This document shows, in pieces, positions 11,254 to 42,727 of a DNA stretch of 64,000 nucleotides. The DNA is from Flavobacterium sp. 1 (GTDB lineage Bacteria > Bacteroidota > Bacteroidia > Flavobacteriales > Flavobacteriaceae). The DNA is taken from NCBI RefSeq assembly GCF_002797935.1, contig NZ_PGER01000001.1:372001-436000 (forward strand), given 5' to 3'. Position 1 is the first letter of the stretch. Each line of letters starts with the position of its first letter. The notes under the pieces were generated by a model. That model ran no database searches. It worked only from the letters and a program-made list of their open reading frames with translations, and was not told where the DNA came from. The translations under genes were made by a program, and so were the position numbers.

Positions 11254-12360
11254 GTTGTGAATTGCTTTCAAAATTGTATTTTAGCTTATAATTCCCAACA
11301 ATGCCTAAATCGGCTTTGATACAATTAAAGTTGTGAATTGCTTTCAAAATTGTATTTTAGCTTATAATTCCCAACTAACCGCTAAATCGTTATAAGCCTG
11401 AGTCAGTTGTGAATTGCTTTCAAAATTGTATTTTAGCTTATAATTCCCAACAAGAGCAATTATTTAAAGCTTTTAGAGAGTGTTGTGAATTGCTTTCAAA
11501 ATTGTATTTTAGCTTATAATTCCCAACTTTTATTCAGTCAAATTTCACCAACTTCTAGTTGTGAATTGCTTTCAAAATTGTATTTTAGCTTATAATTCCC
11601 AACTAATACTCGGCAACTGTTAAGTCATTGTAGGTTGTGAATTGCTTTCAAAATTGTATTTTAGCTTATAATTCCCAACTTTTAAAATTTCCACATAATA
11701 GAGTATGAGTTGTGAATTGCTTTCAAAATTGTATTTTAGCTTATAATTCCCAACGAAGAACTTCCTAGCCATTTACCGCTTTCAGTTGTGAATTGCTTTC
11801 AAAATTGTATTTTAGCTTATAATTCCCAACAAATTACGGTAAAGATGGGCGTTCGGGCGGTTGTGAATTGCTTTCAAAATTGTATTTTAGCTTATAATTC
11901 CCAACCCATCCTGCAACGCTGTAGCAGGACTCATTGTTGTGAATTGCTTTCAAAATTGTATTTTAGCTTATAATTCCCAACTGACATTGTTTAATACATA
12001 AACCTCCACTAGTTGTGAATTGCTTTCAAAATTGTATTTTAGCTTATAATTCCCAACAGATGCGTTGTTAACTAGATCTATGCCGTTGTTGTGAATTGCT
12101 TTCAAAATTGTATTTTAGCTTATAATTCCCAACTCGTCTTTAGCCGTGAGCAGTAACGCAACTGTTGTGAATTGCTTTCAAAATTGTATTTTAGCTTATA
12201 ATTCCCAACATCTGCATTGCAGAACCTCCCGCCAAAGCAGTTGTGAATTGCTTTCAAAATTGTATTTTAGCTTATAATTCCCAACCTCCTGATTTTTTAG
12301 TCCATTGATATTCCGTTGTGAATTGCTTTCAAAATTGTATTTTAGCTTATAATTCCCAAC
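11254..12360 (+). CRISPR. Type II-C CRISPR array, 15 repeats and 14 spacers
   Basis: Fifteen 46-bp repeats begin at 11254, 11330, 11406, 11482, 11558, 11634, 11709, 11785, 11860, 11936, 12012, 12088, 12164, 12240 and 12315, and I see no difference between them. The repeat starts GTTGTGAATTGCTTTC and ends GCTTATAATTCCCAAC. Spacers are 29 or 30 bp. The predicted tracrRNA anti-repeat (20629-20651, + strand) is complementary to the 5' half of the repeat as read on the + strand. The crRNAs should therefore be transcribed rightward, placing the leader before 11254 and the old end near cas2. I matched no spacer to a known phage. Confidence 0.98.
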
Positions 12361-12478: not shown

Positions 12479-12826
12479 TTAAAATAATTCCAATTGTTGT
12501 GAAGGTTTATCAGTTTCTACCGGTTTTTTGCCATAAAAAAGCTCCATCATTCCAAATTGTTTATCGGTTATTTGCATCACACCAATTTTGCCGTGTTCGG
12601 GGAGGTTGTTTTTAATTCTTTTGGTGTGAACCTCGGCATTTTCTCTACTGGCACAAAAACGCATATAGATGGAAAATTGAAACATAGAATAACCATCGTC
12701 TAATAATTTCTTGCGAAATGTACTGGCAATTTTACGCTCTTTGCGTGTTTCGGTGGGCAGATCAAAAAAGACTAATATCCACAAACTTCTATATTGGTTT
12801 AAACGGGTATAATGTTCGTCATACAT
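12479..12826 (-). CDS. cas2: CRISPR-associated endoribonuclease Cas2
   Basis: 115 residues starting MYDEHYTRLNQYRSLW. The ferredoxin-like fold motif WILVFFDLP has the conserved Asp at residue 22, and the C-terminus is QQLELF, typical of II-C Cas2. An upstream in-frame ATG at 12871 exists. The MYDE start is preferred because family members start there and its ATG overlaps the cas1 stop by 8 bp (ATGTATGA), a translational-coupling arrangement. Cas2 bridges Cas1 dimers in the spacer integration complex. Confidence 0.93.
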   Translation of the reverse strand: MYDEHYTRLNQYRSLWILVFFDLPTETRKERKIASTFRKKLLDDGYSMFQFSIYMRFCASRENAEVHTKRIKNNLPEHGKIGVMQITDKQFGMMELFYGKKPVETDKPSQQLELF

Positions 12827-13715
12827 AAACAGGGTATAAAATTTTCCTTGCTGTTCCTTCAAAACATTCATGTAAGGAATGTGTGGTTCTGCTCATTGCG
12901 ACCATCAATGGACTGTTTTTCCCGTCTATAAACACATCAATAGTGGCAATACTTAACAATTGTTTTTTGATTTCGATAGTTAATTCGTCATAACTATCTT
13001 CGGTTTCCATAATGTGACAAACAATCAAATCGACATAAGGTCTATAAGGCTCCATAATATCATCGGCAAGGCAATAGGCATTGTATTTGTTGCGATGAAA
13101 GATGCCTAAAGTGGGTAACATTCCAGAACTGACAATAGCTCTTGCCGTAATGGCTCGTAAAATGGCATAGCCATAATTCAATAAATTATTAGGAGGAATT
13201 CCTTTTTGTCCTCTGGTGAAATTTTCTATAGGGATGAGGTTCTGCCAATAAAAAACTGCCGCTCTGGATTCATGATTGAGTGAATCTCCCGATGTAACTT
13301 CTTTTGCCCAAAGTTCCATTTTTCGGCATGGGATTCCTTTTTCTTTGAGCAGTCCTGCTTGATTTATAATTTTGGCACTAATGGTTTGTTGCCACAAGTT
13401 TTTTTTGAGTGGAACAGAAGCATTAATTTGGTTTTTAAATCGCTCCGTTTGTTCCGTATGCCCGTTCAGTGGCATTAATAATCCAATAGGCAAATGATAT
13501 TGGTCACAATTGATCAATGCCACATTATTATTAGTCAGTTTTTCGAGTAAACCACTGGTAATTGTAATTTGTTGGTTTTCCAGAACGATAACGCCAATAT
13601 CTTCAATAGCAACGGTTTTAGTCTCTTGTTCCTTGTCAGGGTAAGAGATTACGATTTGTTCATTTTTGGTGCTCAAATAAGCGGGGTTGCCGAAGAAAAG
13701 AGTTCGTTTTATCAT
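12819..13715 (-). CDS. cas1: CRISPR-associated integrase Cas1 (type II)
   Basis: 298 residues, starting MIKRTLFFGNPAYL. The metal-binding catalytic residues are visible as Glu149 (NHESRAAVFYW), His207 (GIFHRNKYNAY) and Glu222 (DIMEPYRPYVD), the usual Cas1 triad. It integrates new spacers with Cas2. Its stop overlaps the cas2 start by 8 bp. Upstream, where cas9 would normally be adjacent, there is instead a block of REP-like repeats, a RAYT gene and a HIRAN gene. Confidence 0.96.
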   Translation of the reverse strand: MIKRTLFFGNPAYLSTKNEQIVISYPDKEQETKTVAIEDIGVIVLENQQITITSGLLEKLTNNNVALINCDQYHLPIGLLMPLNGHTEQTERFKNQINASVPLKKNLWQQTISAKIINQAGLLKEKGIPCRKMELWAKEVTSGDSLNHESRAAVFYWQNLIPIENFTRGQKGIPPNNLLNYGYAILRAITARAIVSSGMLPTLGIFHRNKYNAYCLADDIMEPYRPYVDLIVCHIMETEDSYDELTIEIKKQLLSIATIDVFIDGKNSPLMVAMSRTTHSLHECFEGTARKILYPVYV

Positions 13716-13960: not shown

Positions 13961-14392
13961 CTATTCTTTTTGAAATTGATATTTAGCCATAAATTCATCA
14001 TATTCTTCTTGAAAGGTTTGTTTGCTATGGTGCTCTTCTTGGTTTTTAATGTAATTTCTAACTTTATTAACCATAGATTCCGAGACAGAAACCGCAAAAT
14101 ATTCATCTTGCCATTTAAATTTATCTAAACACAATTTGTTTTTGTTAATCCAAAATGAAGACTCTCCTTTAATCAGTTGTATTGTCTTTTGAATGGTTTG
14201 ATCGGCACCCAAAGAAACCAGACAATGACAATGATCAGAATATCCATTAACAAAATCTACAAAAATTCCTTTCTCTTTGGCGTTTTCTTTGATATGATGC
14301 CAAACTTTTTGTCTTAATTCTTTATTGTCCAAAAAAGGAATTCTGTTTTTTGTGCTCCAAACAAAATGGATGTAGGTTTTGATAAAAGGCAT
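13961..14392 (-). CDS. REP-associated tyrosine transposase (RAYT, IS200/IS605-like)
   Basis: 143 residues. It has the Y1-transposase HUH motif His54-Cys-His56 (SDHCHCLVSL) and a probable catalytic Tyr114 (VRNYIKNQEEHH). The N-terminus TYIHFVWSTKNRIPF is typical of the Bacteroidetes branch of the family. RAYTs nick and join DNA at REP palindromes and are domesticated rather than freely mobile. The gene is bracketed by REP-like palindromes on both sides and lies within the Cas operon between cas1 and cas9. Confidence 0.9.
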   Translation of the reverse strand: MPFIKTYIHFVWSTKNRIPFLDNKELRQKVWHHIKENAKEKGIFVDFVNGYSDHCHCLVSLGADQTIQKTIQLIKGESSFWINKNKLCLDKFKWQDEYFAVSVSESMVNKVRNYIKNQEEHHSKQTFQEEYDEFMAKYQFQKE

Positions 14393-14436: not shown

Positions 14437-14570
14437 TGAATTGCCTCCAGCTTTAGCTGGAGGAATATAATAATTGATTTTTAAATAGGCTTTAGCCGAG
14501 ATATTTTGGCTAAAGCTTATTTGGATTGTTTTACATTGTTGAATGGGCTAAAGCCCAATCCTATTGAACT
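14437..14570. repeat. REP-like composite unit 2, between RAYT and HIRAN genes
   Basis: Contains CCTCCAGCTTTAGCTGGAGG (14444-14463), GGCTTTAGCC (14488-14497), TTGGCTAAAGC (~14507-14517) and GGGCTAAAGCCC (14545-14556), in the same order and at similar spacing as unit 3 at 15456-15590. Confidence 0.75.
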
Positions 14571-14573
14571 CAC

Positions 14574-15434
14574 CTAATTTTTGAAAATAATTTCGTAAAA
14601 TAATTTTCCATGTTTGTTCATTAATTTTTCAAAAATTTGTATTCGGTCTGGGATTGTTGCCACTTTATTGACATTGGCAATGATATAGCCATCGTCGTCA
14701 AAAACATTTTCTATTTTTAGTATTTTATCATTTAATGTAGCTTCCAGATCTGAAACTTCAATGTCTTTTGGAATGGAATTCTTTTGGATTACCATTCTGG
14801 ATTCGTTTATTACCGTTTCCATTTCTTGACCGTTGTCAAAGGAATAATGGATTAAATCATAAACGATATCGGTAGAACTATTATTAACTAAAGTTTCATA
14901 AAACTGTTCGCCGTTTAAAATTTCATTTTCGTCATCAAGATATATTCTTGTGTAGGTGTTGTGATTTGATTTTAGCGTATAGTATTTGGGAGTTTCCAGT
15001 AGGGTGTAAGGTTCAATATTTTCTTGAGTTTGATTGTCTTTAATTTCGGTCATTGCATAAATAGCAACATATATGCTTTCCCAATCCGAAGCATTAGGTT
15101 CTATATGAGTTATTTCGGCTTGTAAATCCAATAATTTGGTATCGAGTAAAACACTCAACACTTCATTGCTCTCCATTGGAATAAATCCAATTTTTTGATT
15201 GTTGAAATGCAATGCTATCGCACAAGGATCGTATTCATTATCGGGTTCATGAACCATTTCGAGCAAACCACTACTGTTGATTTGATTAACTATTTTTGGT
15301 CCTTCATAATATTGAAACCCTCTTACAAAACATTGTAAAAGATAAACTTTTTGGTATTGCTTGACCATTTCCAGTGGAAGGGAAGCAATGCCATAAAAGC
15401 CAATTAAATTTCTTAGGAAGTTGCCTCTTGTCAT
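14574..15434 (-). CDS. HIRAN domain-containing protein
   Basis: 286 residues. Residues ~30-125 look like a HIRAN domain: KVYLLQCFVRGFQYYEGP, then EMVHEPDNEYDPCAIAL and KIGFIPMESNEV, the segment with conserved NxxDPxAIxV-like and GYIP-like motifs. HIRAN domains bind DNA ends in eukaryotic HLTF. Stand-alone bacterial HIRAN proteins are of unknown function. The C-terminal half is unrecognised. The gene lies between cas9 and the RAYT gene and is bracketed by composite REP units, so it may have entered the locus as cargo. A role in CRISPR function is only a possibility. An alternative start is Met23. Confidence 0.8.
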   Translation of the reverse strand: MTRGNFLRNLIGFYGIASLPLEMVKQYQKVYLLQCFVRGFQYYEGPKIVNQINSSGLLEMVHEPDNEYDPCAIALHFNNQKIGFIPMESNEVLSVLLDTKLLDLQAEITHIEPNASDWESIYVAIYAMTEIKDNQTQENIEPYTLLETPKYYTLKSNHNTYTRIYLDDENEILNGEQFYETLVNNSSTDIVYDLIHYSFDNGQEMETVINESRMVIQKNSIPKDIEVSDLEATLNDKILKIENVFDDDGYIIANVNKVATIPDRIQIFEKLMNKHGKLFYEIIFKN

Positions 15435-15455: not shown

Positions 15456-15590
15456 GAATTGCCTCCATTTTCAAATGGAGAGATTTTAAATTGGTCTCTA
15501 ATTAGGCTTTAGCCGAAATGTTTTGGCTAAAGCCTATTTGGATTGTTTTACATTGTTGAATGGGTTAAAACCCATTCCTATTGATTCTTG
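15456..15590. repeat. REP-like composite unit 3, cas9 side
   Basis: Same layout as unit 2 with diverged palindromes: CTCCATTTTCAAATGGAG (~15463-15480), GGCTTTAGCC (~15505-15514), TTGGCTAAAGCC (~15523-15534) and TGGGTTAAAACCCA (~15560-15573). Long stretches between the palindromes are nearly identical to unit 2 (for example TTTGGATTGTTTTACATTG). It ends ~15 bp before the cas9 stop codon. Confidence 0.7.
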
Positions 15591-15603: not shown

Positions 15604-18600
15604 TCATCGAATGATTCTTTTAATTTTTCCAAGTCTATCAACTTCTAGTTTTAGACATAAAGATTTTATCATTAATCCTTCAATAGATTTTTCCATTTTA
15701 TTTAAGGCTGAAAATTCCATTTTATCTACAATTGATGAAGCTATAGTGTTTGAAACAAAAAAGGCTTGATTTCCAGTAAAACTTACCATTTTAAATACCC
15801 TTTGCGATTGCTCTTTTGATAGTTTATTGAAATTTAGGAGCGTTAAATTATCCTTTTCATCTTCTGTTGGTATATAAACTAAATCATTTGGAGACAAAGT
15901 AAATAAAAGACGATTTCCGTTTTCATCTATTTCTAGAGCAGAACTTAATCCTTGTTTTTGTCTTTCGATTACTTCGTTGAAGGGAATGGTTTTATAGTTC
16001 CGTTTTCCGTTTTCATCCTGATAAATTGCGAAAAATAAGTTTGTTCCTTTGGCCGCTTCAACATATTTACTTGCTTTGTTTCCTGTTTGTCCGAGACTAA
16101 ATTTGCCACCCTCTTCAAAAACTCTAACTTTTTTTATGGGTTGATGTTTTTTACCATTATTTAAAGCCGTGATATTTTTATTTAACTCATCTAAACCATT
16201 TTCGGAAAAAGCAACTTCGTATGCTGGGTTTTTTTTACCATTTTCATCAATTGCATTTTGATAAATTTCTTGTTGAAGATGATTTAATAGAATTTTTTGA
16301 ATACCAGTATCAGTTATTTTCTCGATTCTTTTTTCATCAAAAGTAATATCAAGTGCTTTTCTTGTCGCAGTTGCTCCATTTTCACCTCCAATAGTTTCAT
16401 AAATTTGTACTTTATCTATAGCTTTTCCATCAATTATTATAGGGAAAGCTTTAAGGTATTTTTTCAAACCTTCTTTATTGTTTGGATATTTTTCAGTTTT
16501 TTCCTTCAATTGTTTTTTAACTTCCTTATCGACAATCAACTCTATTTGCTCAATAGCATTGGTAATAGTAATAAGACTTTGTTTAATTCGTTTTAGGAAT
16601 ACTTTTCCACTTACGGTTTCTGCGTGCATTGGTTTTCTAATCGCCCAGTTATCTCCTCTTACTTGTCTGGTTGTGATTTTTTTCATTGCACCGTCTTCTT
16701 CTTTCCAAACTTGATACTTGTTTATCGTTTTATTGATAACTCTAGTGTTTTGTTTGAAACTGATAATGGTTTGATTCAACTCGTCTTCTACTTTTTTTGT
16801 AAAATTCTCCCAAGGTTTGTGAAATTCTTTTGCTACTTTTTGTGTTTTTCCATTAATCTGAATTTCTTCAATTAGGCGTAGTTTAGAGACCAATGAATAA
16901 TTTGTTCTTTCTGAATTGATAGAATTTAAATAATTGACATGTTCTTTTGTCACACAAGCAATTACCAAAGCATCTAAAGCGTGATGGCGATGGTCAATTC
17001 TTTTTTTAGAAAAACCTTTTGCAATTGCATCTGGTACTGTGGTTTGAAAAACTTGTTTTCCAGTGTTTCCAAATTCGTCTTTTTTGAGTTCTAATTTACC
17101 AAAATCACTTGAATTAGTAATCGCATTCAAACGTTCAAAACGAGGTGTAATTATGTTATTCCAGACATCATTCAAACCCCAATCTTGTTTCATTCTTGAA
17201 GTGATTGACCCATTCAAAGAAACGATATGTTTTGAGGTTACTTCCCGTTCATCTTCTTCTCGAACTATTTTGCTTAAAAGATTCTTTACTATTTTACTTA
17301 TGTATTTAGTGTCATTTAATTGTCTTTCGATAAACTTTTCTGGAATTTCCTCGCTTAATAATCGTTTTTGCTTGTTTTTATTTTTGCTGTAATAACTAGT
17401 GATATGTTGGTTGTAGGCTTCTTTAGTAAAAATTTTAACTGTTTTTCCGCCGGTTAAGGTTACGATTCTATTTTCGTTTTTTTGAATGAATTCTAGAGCA
17501 GTCATATTGCTTTTAAGTTCATTAACTTCAGATTCGCAGATAACTTTATTGGATAAGGAATCATCAAATAATCTTGATTGTGGAATAATATGCTCGATTT
17601 GATATTTTGTTGTAAATAAATCACTCAACGGTATTAGTTTTCCTGTATATGGCGAAATATAACCTTGTTCCATCCAAAGTTTATATTTGATAATTTCAGA
17701 AGGTGTTGGTTTTGCATTTTTTCTGATTTTATCAACTTCCTCTAATTTTTCTTTTCTGATTTCACTGCTATAAACTCCTTCTTCGTAAATTTTTAAAATC
17801 TCTTGTTGGCTTGGAGAATAGGGGCGAACATCATTTATACCGTCATTTTTCAATTCCGTTAAAATGGCTTTGATTCGTAAGTTTGTATTTTCGTTTTGAT
17901 TTATATTATCAGTAATTCTTTTTCTATCTGCAGAATTGTTTTTCATTTCACGCCCCAATTCAATATGGATTTCATTAAAGAAATTTTCTTTTCCCCCTCC
18001 ATAATGTTGCCAAATATCTTTTACCACTCGTAAAGTTTCTGTAATGACTTGCTCTACAATTGGATTACGGAGTGAATGTTGCTTGAAATCATACTTTAAA
18101 AAGTGTTCAATATCTGCAGGAGTTTTCCATTTTGAAACATCACTATCTTCACTATGTCTATCATATATTAAATAGGATGCTTGATAGGTATTTAAACCTT
18201 TATTGAATTCAATACAATTTATAAAACTTTTTAAGACTTGTTTCGGAATATCACTGTCAGATACTTTTTCAAGTATCGATGTGTCATAATTTATAGATTC
18301 CAATCTTTCTTTAATGGCACTTATTTTGGTTGTAACTTTATCAGAAATTGCATCTTGACTCCAAGTTTCATCTCTTCTCATTAAAGTCAATAATTTCTTT
18401 ATCGCTTTTTCAGAATAAGAACCATAATCTTTTTTATACGGCTTTATTTTTGAAAAATTCAATACGAATTCATTTGGCAAATTATGTCGTTTAGCAAAAG
18501 TTGTAATTGCTTTTGTAATTTCAATTTTATCAGTAACAGAATATAAAATGTGCCATAAATCTTGGGTGTTTTTGGCGTCAAAAAAAGTTTTATCAACATC

Positions 18601-20202
18601 AATTTTTGCAATGATATTCAAAAATTGATTTCTTGTTTCGTTACAAGGGTATATTTTGTCTTCAACAAAATTCCATCTAAATTTATCTTCTTTTAGTTTG
18701 AATTTTGGATACGCTAAAAATTGTTTTTGATTGATTTCAGCTTTGTCATTTAACCAATTGAATAATTCTACTAAATCATCTTCCGCTTTTAAATAATCAA
18801 TTGTTACATCAATATCATTAGCGATTTCTTTTTTGAAAATTTTAAGGTTTTTTACAAATTGTAATAGTCTAAATTCTTGAAAAATTGGATTTGATTTAGC
18901 AATACATTTCAAAGGTTTTAAAATTTGCTTTCCATTGCTATCTTTTACCAAAACACCTTTTTTATCTTTAATTGGACTGAATTCTAAACTACAATCACTG
19001 ATTAATGAAGTTTTACTTTTAAGCGGACGTTGATAAAAGATAATGTCATCCAAAAACAAATAGTCAAAACCTCTGTCTTTAATATTATTTTTATGAGAAT
19101 CATTATGTTTATACAATTCATCAATACATTTTTTATAGAGATTTCTATCCTTTAAAGTAGTTGAATGAAATTCAATTTGAGTTTTAAGAATTTTAGATAG
19201 TTCCTCTTTATAAAACTTTCTTTCAATTGTTCTAACTAATTCTCCTTTTATTTTTTGATTTGGGTTTTTAAGTAAATTATCATAAATGAAAGTACCAACT
19301 GATTTTTTACTTTGATTTATTGTTTGTTCTGTTCTAATTTTCTCTAATCCCCAATCGTCTTCTTTTGGAGACCTGAAACTTCTCTTTTCCTCATTGTCTT
19401 TGTTGAGTTTAATAGTTCCATTATCATTTAATTCGGTAGTAACAATAAAATTCTTTTGTCTACCAACCCAGTCAAACAATGCTATTTTGCTTTCTCGTTT
19501 GTAAATCCAACCATTTTCAAGAATTACGTTATACCATATACCTGATTTTCCTTTTTCTCTTTCAATTACATCAACAACCACAAGAGTATGAAATTCCTCG
19601 AGTTTATTTTTGTTTTCTTCCTGTTCTTCACCACGCAATTGATAATAGCCTCTTTTTTGATTGAAATTCAATACTATCCAAGCTAGTTCTTCTTTGGATA
19701 TTTTTTCGGTTAAAGCTTTTTTTCTTAAATAATAAATTGTCCAATCATAGGGAACTTGTTTTAAATCAGGATTTGTTAATTGAAATTCCGAAAGCATTTC
19801 TTGGTGACTTTCTAAAAATAAAAATTGGTTCTTACCATTTTCATTTTTATAAAAAGATAATTTTTCTTCTCTTTCAGGTTTAAATTGCCCAAATTTTTTA
19901 TCAAAATCGATTGCTTCAGAATAATGTTTGGGTAGAAAATCAAGGATATTTAAAACTCGATGCAGTCGCTCTCTTCTCAATAAAAAACGTTGGACTAATC
20001 TTCTTGTTCCTCTATATTTAGTTCTTTCAGCAGTTTGGGATATAGAAACACCACTATCAAATTTACCAAGTACATCTTGGCTCATAGGGATTATTCTACT
20101 GCCTAATCCTTCAATGTTTCCAAGTTTATTGTCGAAGTCATTATTGGTTAACGCCCACCCAATACTATTTGTACCTAAATCTAATCCTAATATTTTTTTC
20201 AT
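15604..20202 (-). CDS. cas9: Type II-C CRISPR RNA-guided endonuclease Cas9
   Basis: 1,532 residues. RuvC-I is at the N-terminus (KKILGLDLGTNSIGWAL, catalytic Asp8), followed by an Arg-rich bridge helix (GTRRLVQRFLLRRERLHR). RuvC-II is IHIELGREMK with Glu748. The HNH nuclease carries IEHIIPQSRLFDDSLSNK with His871. RuvC-III is IDHRHHALDALVIA with Asp1077. All key catalytic residues are present, so the enzyme should cut. It is longer than many II-C Cas9 proteins but similar to Bacteroidetes members. With no cas4 or csn2 in sight, the locus is II-C. A -7 box and a predicted guide-directed binding site lie upstream at 20234-20269. Confidence 0.98.
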   Translation of the reverse strand: MKKILGLDLGTNSIGWALTNNDFDNKLGNIEGLGSRIIPMSQDVLGKFDSGVSISQTAERTKYRGTRRLVQRFLLRRERLHRVLNILDFLPKHYSEAIDFDKKFGQFKPEREEKLSFYKNENGKNQFLFLESHQEMLSEFQLTNPDLKQVPYDWTIYYLRKKALTEKISKEELAWIVLNFNQKRGYYQLRGEEQEENKNKLEEFHTLVVVDVIEREKGKSGIWYNVILENGWIYKRESKIALFDWVGRQKNFIVTTELNDNGTIKLNKDNEEKRSFRSPKEDDWGLEKIRTEQTINQSKKSVGTFIYDNLLKNPNQKIKGELVRTIERKFYKEELSKILKTQIEFHSTTLKDRNLYKKCIDELYKHNDSHKNNIKDRGFDYLFLDDIIFYQRPLKSKTSLISDCSLEFSPIKDKKGVLVKDSNGKQILKPLKCIAKSNPIFQEFRLLQFVKNLKIFKKEIANDIDVTIDYLKAEDDLVELFNWLNDKAEINQKQFLAYPKFKLKEDKFRWNFVEDKIYPCNETRNQFLNIIAKIDVDKTFFDAKNTQDLWHILYSVTDKIEITKAITTFAKRHNLPNEFVLNFSKIKPYKKDYGSYSEKAIKKLLTLMRRDETWSQDAISDKVTTKISAIKERLESINYDTSILEKVSDSDIPKQVLKSFINCIEFNKGLNTYQASYLIYDRHSEDSDVSKWKTPADIEHFLKYDFKQHSLRNPIVEQVITETLRVVKDIWQHYGGGKENFFNEIHIELGREMKNNSADRKRITDNINQNENTNLRIKAILTELKNDGINDVRPYSPSQQEILKIYEEGVYSSEIRKEKLEEVDKIRKNAKPTPSEIIKYKLWMEQGYISPYTGKLIPLSDLFTTKYQIEHIIPQSRLFDDSLSNKVICESEVNELKSNMTALEFIQKNENRIVTLTGGKTVKIFTKEAYNQHITSYYSKNKNKQKRLLSEEIPEKFIERQLNDTKYISKIVKNLLSKIVREEDEREVTSKHIVSLNGSITSRMKQDWGLNDVWNNIITPRFERLNAITNSSDFGKLELKKDEFGNTGKQVFQTTVPDAIAKGFSKKRIDHRHHALDALVIACVTKEHVNYLNSINSERTNYSLVSKLRLIEEIQINGKTQKVAKEFHKPWENFTKKVEDELNQTIISFKQNTRVINKTINKYQVWKEEDGAMKKITTRQVRGDNWAIRKPMHAETVSGKVFLKRIKQSLITITNAIEQIELIVDKEVKKQLKEKTEKYPNNKEGLKKYLKAFPIIIDGKAIDKVQIYETIGGENGATATRKALDITFDEKRIEKITDTGIQKILLNHLQQEIYQNAIDENGKKNPAYEVAFSENGLDELNKNITALNNGKKHQPIKKVRVFEEGGKFSLGQTGNKASKYVEAAKGTNLFFAIYQDENGKRNYKTIPFNEVIERQKQGLSSALEIDENGNRLLFTLSPNDLVYIPTEDEKDNLTLLNFNKLSKEQSQRVFKMVSFTGNQAFFVSNTIASSIVDKMEFSALNKMEKSIEGLMIKSLCLKLEVDRLGKIKRIIR

Positions 20203-20233
20203 ATTCTTGTCTGTTTTGTCCCTTTATAATTAA

Positions 20234-20241
20234 CAAATTTA
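20234..20241 (-). promoter_or_regulatory. -7 element of the cas9 promoter
   Basis: On the minus strand this reads TAAATTTG, an exact match to TAnnTTTG, 31 nt before the cas9 ATG. A clear -33 TTTG is missing; the best candidate (ATAG at 20264-20261) falls in the predicted Cas9 binding site. Confidence 0.55.
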
Positions 20242-20248
20242 ATAAATA

Positions 20249-20269
20249 TTTATTTCTTATCTATTGTAA
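20249..20269 (-). promoter_or_regulatory. Predicted Cas9 self-targeting site (12-nt seed match plus PAM)
   Basis: On the minus strand, TTACAATAGATA (20269-20258) is identical to the 12 nt immediately 5' of the solitary CRISPR repeat at 20415. It is followed by AGAAA-TAAA (20257-20249), which fits an NNNNN-TAAA PAM. Extending to 20 nt gives 16 matches, with all four mismatches at the PAM-distal end. The site covers the -33 region of the cas9 promoter and the TTG -33 element of the divergent small-RNA promoter. The alternative is a protein-binding inverted repeat. Confidence 0.65.
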
Positions 20270-20293
20270 ATATAAAATTAGTTTCTATATTTG
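20264..20293 (+). promoter_or_regulatory. Promoter of the crRNA-like small RNA
   Basis: TTG (20264-20266), 19-bp spacer, TATATTTG (20286-20293): a consensus Bacteroidetes promoter pointing away from cas9. Transcription would start near 20298. The TTG lies within the predicted Cas9 binding site, so occupancy would also shut off this promoter. Confidence 0.6.
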
Positions 20294-20297
20294 CATT

Positions 20298-20467
20298 GAA
20301 GTTCGAGATTTGATGATCAGAAATTGTGAGATAATAGGTCCAAACTATTGTCTGGCTTATTTTAAGTCGACTTCTTTAATTCATTCTATTTAAAGTTTTA
20401 AATTACAATAGATAGTTGTGAATTGCTTTTAAAATTGTGAGCAAGGGTTGAAAACCCTTGCTTTTTT
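20298..20467 (+). ncRNA. Single-repeat crRNA-like RNA (candidate Cas9 autoregulatory guide)
   Basis: The RNA is predicted from the TTG-N19-TATATTTG promoter to the terminator. Its functional end is 20395-20467. Bases 20395-20414 are the guide position, with 20403-20414 (TTACAATAGATA) matching the cas9 promoter region. Bases 20415-20438 match the first 24 nt of the CRISPR repeat with one C-to-T change at 20430. Then comes a hairpin, GCAAGGGTT / AACCCTTGC (20441-20449 / 20453-20461), with TTTTTT. The repeat part can pair with the tracrRNA anti-repeat. The orientation (guide 5', repeat 3') is that of a crRNA, not a tracrRNA. No ORF fits. Expression and function are inferred; the 5' end is the least certain part. 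Confidence 0.65.
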
Positions 20468-20628
20468 ATTTTTCACCACCTCATCCTAATATTTTCTTCA
20501 TTTTTAAACTATATTTTATAATGATTTTTCTCGTTATCTAAATTAATCTTTAAATTTAATTAAAAGGAAATTAATTACTTTACGGAAAACCTCATTCAAA
20601 TAATAATTTTTTTGTTGTATTATTGCAG

Positions 20629-20718
20629 TACAATTTTGAAGCAATTCACAATAAGGATTATTCCGTTGTGAAAACATTCAAAGCGGTGTAGTTATTCATA
20701 ACTACATCGCTTTTTTTT
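20629..20718 (+). ncRNA. tracrRNA
   Basis: The anti-repeat at 20629-20651 (TACAATTTTGAAGCAATTCA and following CAA) is complementary to the 5' half of the CRISPR repeat with a one-nucleotide bulge. It is followed by ATAAGGATTATTCCGTTGTG, the AAGG...CCGTTGTGAAAAC-type nexus common to II-C tracrRNAs. A terminator follows, with GCGGTGTAGTTA (20683-20694) pairing with TAACTACATCGC (20699-20710), one G-U pair, then eight T. The 5' end is approximate; a near-consensus -7 box TATTATTG lies at 20618-20625, so the start could be at or just before 20629. Confidence 0.85.
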
Positions 20719-20724
20719 ATGCAG

Positions 20725-20760
20725 AAAGCCCTCAAAATGGAACTCCATTTTGAGGGCTTT
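20725..20760. terminator. Strong hairpin between tracrRNA and aroE
   Basis: A perfect 16-bp stem, AAAGCCCTCAAAATGG (20725-20740) with CCATTTTGAGGGCTTT (20745-20760), loop AACT. It lies 46 bp after the aroE stop (minus strand) and just after the tracrRNA terminator, so it probably ends aroE transcription. Confidence 0.75.
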
Positions 20761-20806
20761 TGTATTTTATAAATCTATTTTTAAAATAGTATTACGAGAC
20801 TGCTTT

Positions 20807-42558: not shown

Positions 42559-42635
42559 CCTGCAAGGTCTTTTTTTTAACCTTGTAGGTATTTGATTTTA
42601 AAAGCAAACCTACAAGGTTTTGGAAACCTTGCAGG
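42559..42635. repeat. Two related hairpins (REP-like)
   Basis: CCTGCAAGGT (42559-42568) faces ACCTTGTAGG (42579-42588), and CCTACAAGGTT (42609-42619) faces AACCTTGCAGG (42625-42635). The arms are variants of one sequence and can also pair between hairpins. They lie in the gap upstream of the zinc-ribbon gene. Function is unknown. Confidence 0.55.
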
Positions 42636-42727
42636 ATTGTATAAAGCATTGAAATGAACTTTTAATAATATTATTTCTTCGGTTCAGGATAAATACTAAA
42701 AGCTTAGAATCTTAGATTCTCATCAAC

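Follow-up and report, generated by a model that had tools for sequence, protein, structure and literature searches.

Elements resembling crRNAs are said, by Shmakov et al. in 2023, to belong mostly to type I systems and also to type V-A. The CreR RNAs are crRNA-like and autorepress the effector genes of types I-B, I-E and V-A through a partial match to the promoter (PMC13131331, PMC12737573). In the type II-A system of S. pyogenes, tracr-L is a natural single guide whose short match leads Cas9 to the cas promoter, which is repressed without cutting, and a crRNA with 11 nt matching Pcas gave "equally low levels" in a repression test (PMC11417352). Autorepression is already established, in other words, for Cas9 in type II-A (tracr-L) and for crRNA-like RNAs in types I and V-A (CreR). 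The scaRNA of Francisella novicida (type II-B) pairs with tracrRNA through a diverged repeat, and its 15 bp guide makes Cas9 a repressor (PMC8730458), and a type II-C scaRNA of N. meningitidis acts on the efeO mRNA (PMC13431127). The terms Flavobacterium, II-C and Bacteroid are absent from the main text of Guzina 2018 on scaRNAs (PMC6199352), and the accessible sections of a Riemerella CRISPR paper give solely an anti-repeat before cas9 (PMC5006608). CreTA uses its crRNA-like part to keep the promoter of a neighbouring RNA repressed, and in two haloarchaea CreT acts by sequestering a rare tRNA (PMC9458426). An RNA of the kind described below was not found for type II-C Bacteroidota in the literature searched, most subscription papers being outside its scope; the first-pass annotation of this DNA had likewise known of no such description.

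The DNA analysed here, termed the window, is a stretch of 64,000 nt from Flavobacterium sp. 1 (GCF_002797935.1, NZ_PGER01000001.1, positions 372,001-436,000 of the forward strand). It probably encodes a type II-C crRNA-like RNA with which Cas9 represses both cas9 and the promoter of the RNA itself, binding the DNA without cutting it. The RNA resembles CreR in a repeat predicted to pair with the local anti-repeat and in a 12-nt partial match to the predicted cas9 promoter with a putative PAM. It differs from CreR in its type II-C Cas9 and tracrRNA, its single half repeat, its structured 5' domain, the terminator fused to the repeat in nine of 13 modules, and a target that also falls within the promoter of the RNA itself. 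The window RNA was regarded as a CreR variant rather than a member because the effector is Cas9, not that of type I or V-A. As with tracr-L, Cas9 would be led to the cas promoter by a short match; whereas tracr-L is a long tracrRNA that itself serves as the single guide, the guide here is joined to a half repeat and would need a separate tracrRNA. The diverged, putatively tracrRNA-pairing repeat and the short guide are also those of a scaRNA, whereas the scaRNA of F. novicida targets lipoprotein genes. The target covers the predicted -33 region of the RNA's own promoter, which invites comparison with CreTA; CreTA, however, works with type I Cascade and its toxicity was shown, whereas here the effector is Cas9 and a single transcript is predicted. 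A single repeat outside arrays is shared with the solitary repeat units of Racr, but Racr is a viral repeat mimic (PMC10651486), and the present element lies between cas9 and the tracrRNA gene and has a guide matching the promoter.

Part of the window is a type II CRISPR locus with cas9, cas1 and cas2 on the minus strand, and its features are as follows.

11254..12360, plus strand: CRISPR array, 15 repeats, each 46 nt
12479..12871, minus strand: cas2, NCBIfam model passes its cut-off
12819..13715, minus strand: cas1, type II cas1 NCBIfam model passes its cut-off
15604..20202, minus strand: cas9, open frame of 1532 aa with motifs LDLGTNS and IEHIIPQ; TIGR01865 passes its cut-off
20234..20241, minus strand: putative -7 box of cas9, TAAATTTG, 31 nt upstream of the start codon (ATG), with the target on the corresponding -33 region
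20249..20257, minus strand: PAM-side flank of the target, AGAAATAAA (NNAAAT / NNNNNTAAA), from the sequence
20258..20269, minus strand: target site, 12 nt equal to the guide 3' end (sequence identity)
20264..20266, plus strand: TTG within the target, putative -33 element of the crRNA-like RNA (from the sequence)
20286..20293, plus strand: putative -7 box TATATTTG of the crRNA-like RNA, of the TAnnTTTG type
20298..20374, plus strand: predicted 5' domain with an outer stem and arms; arm 2 is GATAATAG-GTCCAAA-CTATTGTC, and arms 1 and 3 are less family-like
20299..20467, plus strand: putative crRNA-like RNA gene, start placed from the -7 box and end from the terminator
20395..20414, plus strand: guide of 20 nt, 16/20 matching the target, the final 12 contiguous
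20415..20438, plus strand: solitary half CRISPR repeat that differs from the array repeat at one position; predicted partner of the tracrRNA anti-repeat
20439..20467, plus strand: intrinsic terminator, hairpin at 20439-20463 and then a T-run
20480..20504, minus strand: remnant of an older cas9 start, 22/25 identical to 20181-20205
20632..20722, plus strand: predicted tracrRNA gene with anti-repeat, core at 20648-20677 and terminator at 20680-20713; its ends are estimates

The two cas9 motifs are those that we take to be RuvC-I and HNH. A model scan of the five ORFs between cas2 and cas9 gave no csn2 or cas4, and the locus has the organisation of type II-C, namely cas9, cas1 and cas2 without adjoining csn2 or cas4 and a tracrRNA, recognised by sequence, beside cas9. 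A HIRAN-domain ORF (14574-15434) lies between cas1 and cas9, flanked by two 96-nt direct repeats (14472-14567 and 15489-15584) that are 90% identical, and an IS200-type transposase ORF (13961-14392) adjoins this region.

The guide, half repeat and terminator sit in the interval that separates cas9 from the tracrRNA gene. The half repeat is identical at 23 of 24 positions to the 15 repeats of the array, which bears out the solitary 24-nt repeat with one mismatch reported by the first-pass annotation, and the terminator hairpin and T-run that it saw directly after the repeat were also found. At up to three mismatches, the half repeat matched the 15 array copies, its own position and three more sites, each with three mismatches. 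The pairing between half repeat and anti-repeat was predicted at -28.4 kcal/mol. The 5' end of the RNA is probably near 20299, given the -7 box. A transcript of 20395-20467 had been proposed earlier; the terminator agrees with an end near 20467, and the RNA appears longer and structured, with its putative start and 5' domain well upstream of that interval. Guide accessibility was nothing special in single-strand folds.

The seed TTACAATAGATA at 20403-20414 (plus strand) recurs at 20269-20258 (minus strand), upstream of cas9, exactly where the earlier reading had placed it. The alignment agreed with that reading as well, with matches at 16 of the 20 guide positions nearest the repeat and mismatches on the PAM-distal side only. 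The claimed difference in flank was also present, since the target continues on the minus strand with AGAAATAAAT and the guide's own locus with GTTGTGAATT. Three exact copies of the 12-nt seed exist in the genome (5.35 Mb). Two lie 145 bp from each other; the third, at G000:C1:2886106-2886117, is a possible further target. Within the 64 kb window, two seed sites were found with one mismatch allowed, compared with 0.85 expected, and hence the 12-mer alone is unremarkable at this scale. When the local region was shuffled 4000 times with dinucleotides preserved, a 12-nt match ending at the repeat never arose. The evidence beyond chance is that of the local and comparative tests, rather than the count of the 12-mer within 64 kb.

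The comparison started from 30 loci of named Cas9 relatives, and the conserved tracrRNA core ACAATAAGGATTATTCCGTTGTGAAAACAT (20648-20677, plus strand in the window) was searched with at most one mismatch in further, overlapping sets of genomes. The core was matched in 50/398 genomes of the same genus, 56/395 of the order, 25/395 of the phylum, and 88/173 of g34, a second genus in a different family of the same order. Removal of identical contexts left 199, of which 188 had a recognised cas9 start and 11 were dropped. The gaps between cas9 and the tracrRNA gene were mostly 56-161 nt, and 23 exceeded 195 nt. Because a scan that relied on matching targets would have given a biased count, the 188 gaps were rescanned blind to targets for half repeats on the tracrRNA strand, with at most two mismatches. 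The rescan gave 14 half repeats away from the cas9 start, and 13 of them belong to modules (the window, L026, L047, L082, L123, L135, L137, L152, L157, L164, L174, L179 and L209); the remaining one, in L048, lies in the tracrRNA promoter region and has a match of 4 nt. The module is present in 13 of the 188 intervals, most relatives being without it, and none was found in the long intervals L064, L114 and L149. Nine modules come from g34, L047 and L123 from the genus of the window, and L026 is a Bacteroidia MAG (JAUIBA010000007.1), in which the best-matching segment of Cas9 is 49% identical. Every count of 13 includes the atypical modules L209 and L047. L051, which has a half repeat and a 10-nt match, was kept outside because its nearest cas9 start is a remnant; one copy of its match is a local hairpin. 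Besides its module, L047 has a further half repeat at a distance of 33 nt from the cas9 start, which was excluded from the count; this repeat-like stretch has a TATCTTTG box on the tracrRNA strand.

The run of each module was defined as the longest contiguous match on the opposite strand, starting from the base adjoining the half repeat, in the region from the cas9 start to the guide. The guide end was fixed by the half repeat and the target was the best match within its region. The runs in the 13 modules were 13, 13, 11, 10, 10, 11, 12, 11, 12, 12, 11, 6 and 8 nt. Eleven guides matched an opposite-strand site before cas9 by 10-13 nt at the guide 3' end, and two were imperfect: the run of L209 was 6 nt (12 with one mismatch), and that of L047 was 8 nt, or 22 guide positions when a single mismatch and a 1-nt gap are allowed. 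The observed run was reached in 0-5 of 4000 dinucleotide shuffles in the 11 good modules, and, counting contiguous runs only, in 250/4000 for L209 and 115/4000 for L047. The guides are mostly unrelated and each fits its own locus; tested on other loci, they gave a mean run of 4.5 nt. Long cross-matches of 8-12 nt occurred among the kin L135, L137, L152 and L179, with single 7- and 8-nt ones elsewhere. Even within this group, guide and target change together, as L137 has GTGCAGAGTTA in both and L135, L152 and L179 have GTACAGAGTTA in both. Pseudo-guides at other offsets in the same RNAs reached 10 nt in 8 of 1729 cases. The match is short, because the PAM-distal guide positions 13-22, summed over the 13 modules, matched in just 57/130. 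Relatives in which guide and promoter site do not co-vary had been named beforehand as evidence that would refute the proposal; the 13 modules, with their mostly unrelated guides, show the co-variation.

Moreover, the half repeat tracks its own anti-repeat, with GTTTTC against GAAAAC in L123 and GAATTACTTTC against GAAAGTAATTC in L152 and L179, and L209 breaks one repeat/anti-repeat pair. A terminator hairpin and T-run follow the half repeat in 9/13 modules; by the same criterion, none was found in L026, L047, L123 and L209. In L047, the arms GCAAAGGAAGAC and GTCTTCCTTTGC, read by eye, stand before a T-run, with the guide and half repeat inside the loop.

The flank of each target was read in the register set by the border between guide and repeat. 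AAAT was present at flank positions 3-6 (NNAAAT) in 8/13 modules and absent from the flanks of the other five; in other registers it occurred in 0/13 at offsets 1, 2, 4, 5 and 6, in one at 7 and in two at 9. The eight amount to about five independent cases, because four of them are kin. An NNAAAT flank also accompanies the additional, ATG-proximal copy of the site in L152 and in L179. The F. columnare PAM has been published as NNNNNTAAA, which the window flank AGAAATAAA fits (PMC8092290), and the Fp2Cas9 of F. psychrophilum was reported with NNAAAG (PMC10309648). The fixed register and this fit together support the putative PAM beside the target that had been proposed in the first reading. The spacers of the arrays in the window and L028 gave no usable protospacer in the phage collection, and the 3' parts of four of the 14 window spacers gave no match each in viral_contigs. 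A Riemerella phage was rejected as a protospacer source, since the phage's own repeats produce the match, and a match to an ssRNA phage (two copies, 85% over 47 bases, E 0.05) was taken as chance.

The spacing between a -33 TTG and a -7 box is 19 nt. The promoter box of Bacteroidetes is quoted as TAnnTTTG (PMC10309648) and the TTG is quoted at -33 (PMC8092290). Relative to the PAM-side end of the target, the range from -12 to +26 nt held a cas9-strand promoter-like box in 12/13 modules (0.61 expected from shuffles). At 8-22 nt from the opposite end of the target, 11/13 had such a box on the RNA strand (0.22 expected); both expectations are somewhat too low because the distance ranges were chosen after the distances had been seen. 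The cas9-strand box ends 22-26 nt past the PAM side in six modules including the window, so that in these six the site covers its -33 region. It is inside or at the edge of the site in five modules and at 17 in L026, and none was in range for L047. The target precedes the RNA's own box in all 13 modules; the box is exact in 12 and TATATTTA in L157. The distance from the target to this box is 11-20 nt in 11/13, 17 nt for the near-match box of L157 and 28 nt in L047. In L209, L047 and the outer site of L152 and L179, the target is 150-201 nt from the cas9 ATG, which is far for a cas9 promoter; the second site copy in L152 and L179 is 44 and 43 nt from the ATG, respectively. A stem in the RNA was ruled out as the cause of the match because the target lies upstream of the predicted transcript, and antisense pairing with the cas9 mRNA was excluded because the guide and this mRNA have the same sense. 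What remains is DNA targeting at a site common to two divergent, predicted promoters. Furthermore, cas9 may be neither the sole nor the main target, because the site overlaps the promoter of the RNA equally.

From these sequences we infer how the element would act. An RNA of about 170 nt would be transcribed towards the tracrRNA gene from its own promoter. Its 3' end would form a miniature crRNA composed of the guide, the half repeat pairing with tracrRNA and a terminator replacing the remainder of the repeat, and the RNA would be loaded into Cas9 together with tracrRNA. Cas9 would then be led to the PAM-flanked site of 10-13 matching nt between the divergent promoters of cas9 and the RNA. The match may be too short to allow cutting, so that Cas9 would stay bound and repress cas9 and the gene of the RNA. 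This would be negative autoregulation, relieved on induction, once crRNAs or anti-CRISPRs occupy Cas9. The earlier proposal of a complex of Cas9, crRNA-like RNA and tracrRNA repressing cas9 is strengthened by the co-variation, the putative PAM and the promoter boxes, and needs amending in that the site covers the RNA's own promoter too. If true, autorepression extends to type II-C with a dual-RNA guide and gains a structured RNA domain; a low cas9 level would be explained, and induction is predicted when anti-CRISPRs or many crRNAs fill Cas9.

Between promoter and guide, the predicted RNA carries a covarying four-way-junction 5' domain, which is new and without an Rfam match. It comprises an outer stem and three arms with the conserved loops GACG, GUCCAAA and CCCAAG, and arms of unrelated sequence have a common fold. 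In the alignment A1 (12 sequences from 10 loci, the window left out), 84.9% of cells were base-paired, compared with 60.3% in shuffles and 34-47% for slid structures, and 20/23 pairs had changed on both sides; these figures overstate the significance because the structure was drawn from the same sequences, some of which are kin. The match of the window to model R1 was weak, at 15.2 bits (E 0.0014 for a search of 601 bases, and E 0.14 with rank 2 for 64 kb), with arm 2 fitting well and the other arms diverged. The minus-strand stretch 42599-42665 scored 16.5 bits, above the true site, and hence R1 alone would have missed the module in the window. Among the best 25 candidates per genome in the 173 g34 genomes, R1 gave 11 matches with E < 1e-8 in nine genomes, all of them modules used in training, and 10 further weak ones (E 0.004-0.1). 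The same nine genomes were recovered among the best 13 candidates each of 320 genomes of the family of g34, and no match up to E 1 was obtained in 27 other loci including L026, L047 and L051. The fold of L026 nevertheless shows, by eye, an arm with the loop GUCCAAA, and no 5' domain of such a fold was seen in L047 and L051. Rfam gave 11 matches up to E 1 in window positions 20200-20800, all below the gathering score, and in five of the 13 module loci the sole gathering-level match was CRISPR-DR50 in the array of L123. The cloverleaf-like shape and its CCA-anticodon-like loop, which we would liken to that of tRNA-Trp, are suggestive only. At its default, ARAGORN called none of the 13 main-class folds a tRNA; at lowered thresholds the calls were mostly on the wrong strand and a tRNA identity was rejected, the sole right-strand call at the 80% threshold being that of L164.

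A second form was found on the cas9 strand. In L146, L176 and L187, a half repeat and a terminator-like hairpin stand behind a tRNA-type cloverleaf, called by ARAGORN as Asn(att), Ile(tat) and Phe(gaa), respectively. The guide of L146 matches 10 nt of DNA before its own promoter box, with the flank TAAAATAAAT. For L176 and L187, the match of each guide to its own promoter region spans 22 guide positions, interrupted by a single mismatch and a 1-nt gap; at one base that distinguishes these two loci, guide and site carry the same change. The guides of L096 (11 nt) and L180b (10 nt), with no called tRNA, also match DNA before their own box; the boxes of L146, L180b and L096 were read by eye. A broken pattern of 8 nt, one mismatch and a 1-nt gap, and 12 nt is shared by the guides of L047, L176 and L187. 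In all five of these further modules, the RNA runs towards cas9 and targets its own promoter rather than that of cas9. This suggests that the RNA's own promoter is the constant target in both forms.

A constant target of this kind keeps alive a reading as a CreTA-like guard, to which we give a smaller but real chance. The 5' RNA would be harmful or would signal when present in quantity, and Cas9 with the crRNA-like tail would silence it; loss or inhibition of Cas9 would release the RNA, and the repression of cas9 would be a by-product of the shared promoter region. The position of the RNA's own box next to the target in the divergent modules is consistent with this reading, as are the cas9-strand guides matching DNA before their own promoters, the Asn, Ile and Phe tRNAs in L146, L176 and L187, and a four-way junction that exceeds the needs of a simple guide. 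However, antitoxin and supposed toxin would be in a single transcript, whereas CreTA consists of the genes creT and creA (PMC9458426), and the main-class 5' fold is hardly ever called a tRNA. In addition, 12 of the 13 sites also lie on a promoter-like box of the cas9 strand, and the longest contiguous match of L187 and L176 is a local hairpin rather than the promoter. The guard is compatible with autorepression of cas9 and the RNA, and the two are not exclusive. A combination, somewhat more speculative than the guard itself, is a single-transcript, Cas9-dependent guard in which a folded or tRNA-type RNA has a 3' crRNA-like off-switch and the divergent form also sets the level of cas9. Such an element would merge CreTA-like addiction with CreR-like autoregulation and would enter cas9 loci as a promoter cassette.

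The other explanations were considered improbable. Solitary repeat units of phages inhibit CRISPR (PMC10651486), and the element might by analogy be an RNA-based, Racr-like decoy that sequesters Cas9 and tracrRNA with an irrelevant guide; its place within the cas locus makes this very unlikely, and a decoy predicts neither guides matched to the local promoter region nor a flank in a fixed register. The patchy presence of the module, with 13 changes for 13 carriers scattered on a FastTree tree of Cas9 N-termini (182 rows), would suit a decayed array remnant or a functionless chance match, but the covarying 5' fold, the terminators in 9/13, the co-variation of guide and target and the repeat that tracks the anti-repeat in L123, L152 and L179 leave this even less credible than a decoy. 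We gave the least weight of all to the idea that the 12-mer is repeated because a DNA-binding protein uses it as an operator or because it contributes to an RNA stem. The copies in the window are inverted with 133 bp between them, yet the match ends precisely at the half repeat in 11/13 modules, the other offsets rarely reach 10 nt, and the upstream copy is outside the predicted transcript.

The Cas9 tree covered 182 of the 199 contexts (one duplicate was removed, and 16 lacked a usable start or had a frame that was too short), and the nearest row was without a module for 11/13 carriers. Alignments with near relatives placed the cassette at the cas9 start, most clearly for L164 when aligned with L143. 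The remnant of an older cas9 start beyond the cassette, present in the window at 20480-20504, was also seen by eye in L157 and weakly in L135, and L051 is similar. According to these alignments and start remnants, the cassette seems to supply cas9 with both a new promoter region and a controller. In the intervals of L145 and L081, an additional, diverged copy resembling the tracrRNA gene was noted, in which GGCTATAAGCCGAAGAAAA or GGCTAAAAGCCGAAGAAAA replaces the usual core. The Riemerella phage CRP19 (OR089151.1, 29284-29490; L238:1501-1707) carries three II-C-type repeats in a stretch with no annotated genes; both intervening spacers are identical, and a terminator-like hairpin follows the repeats.
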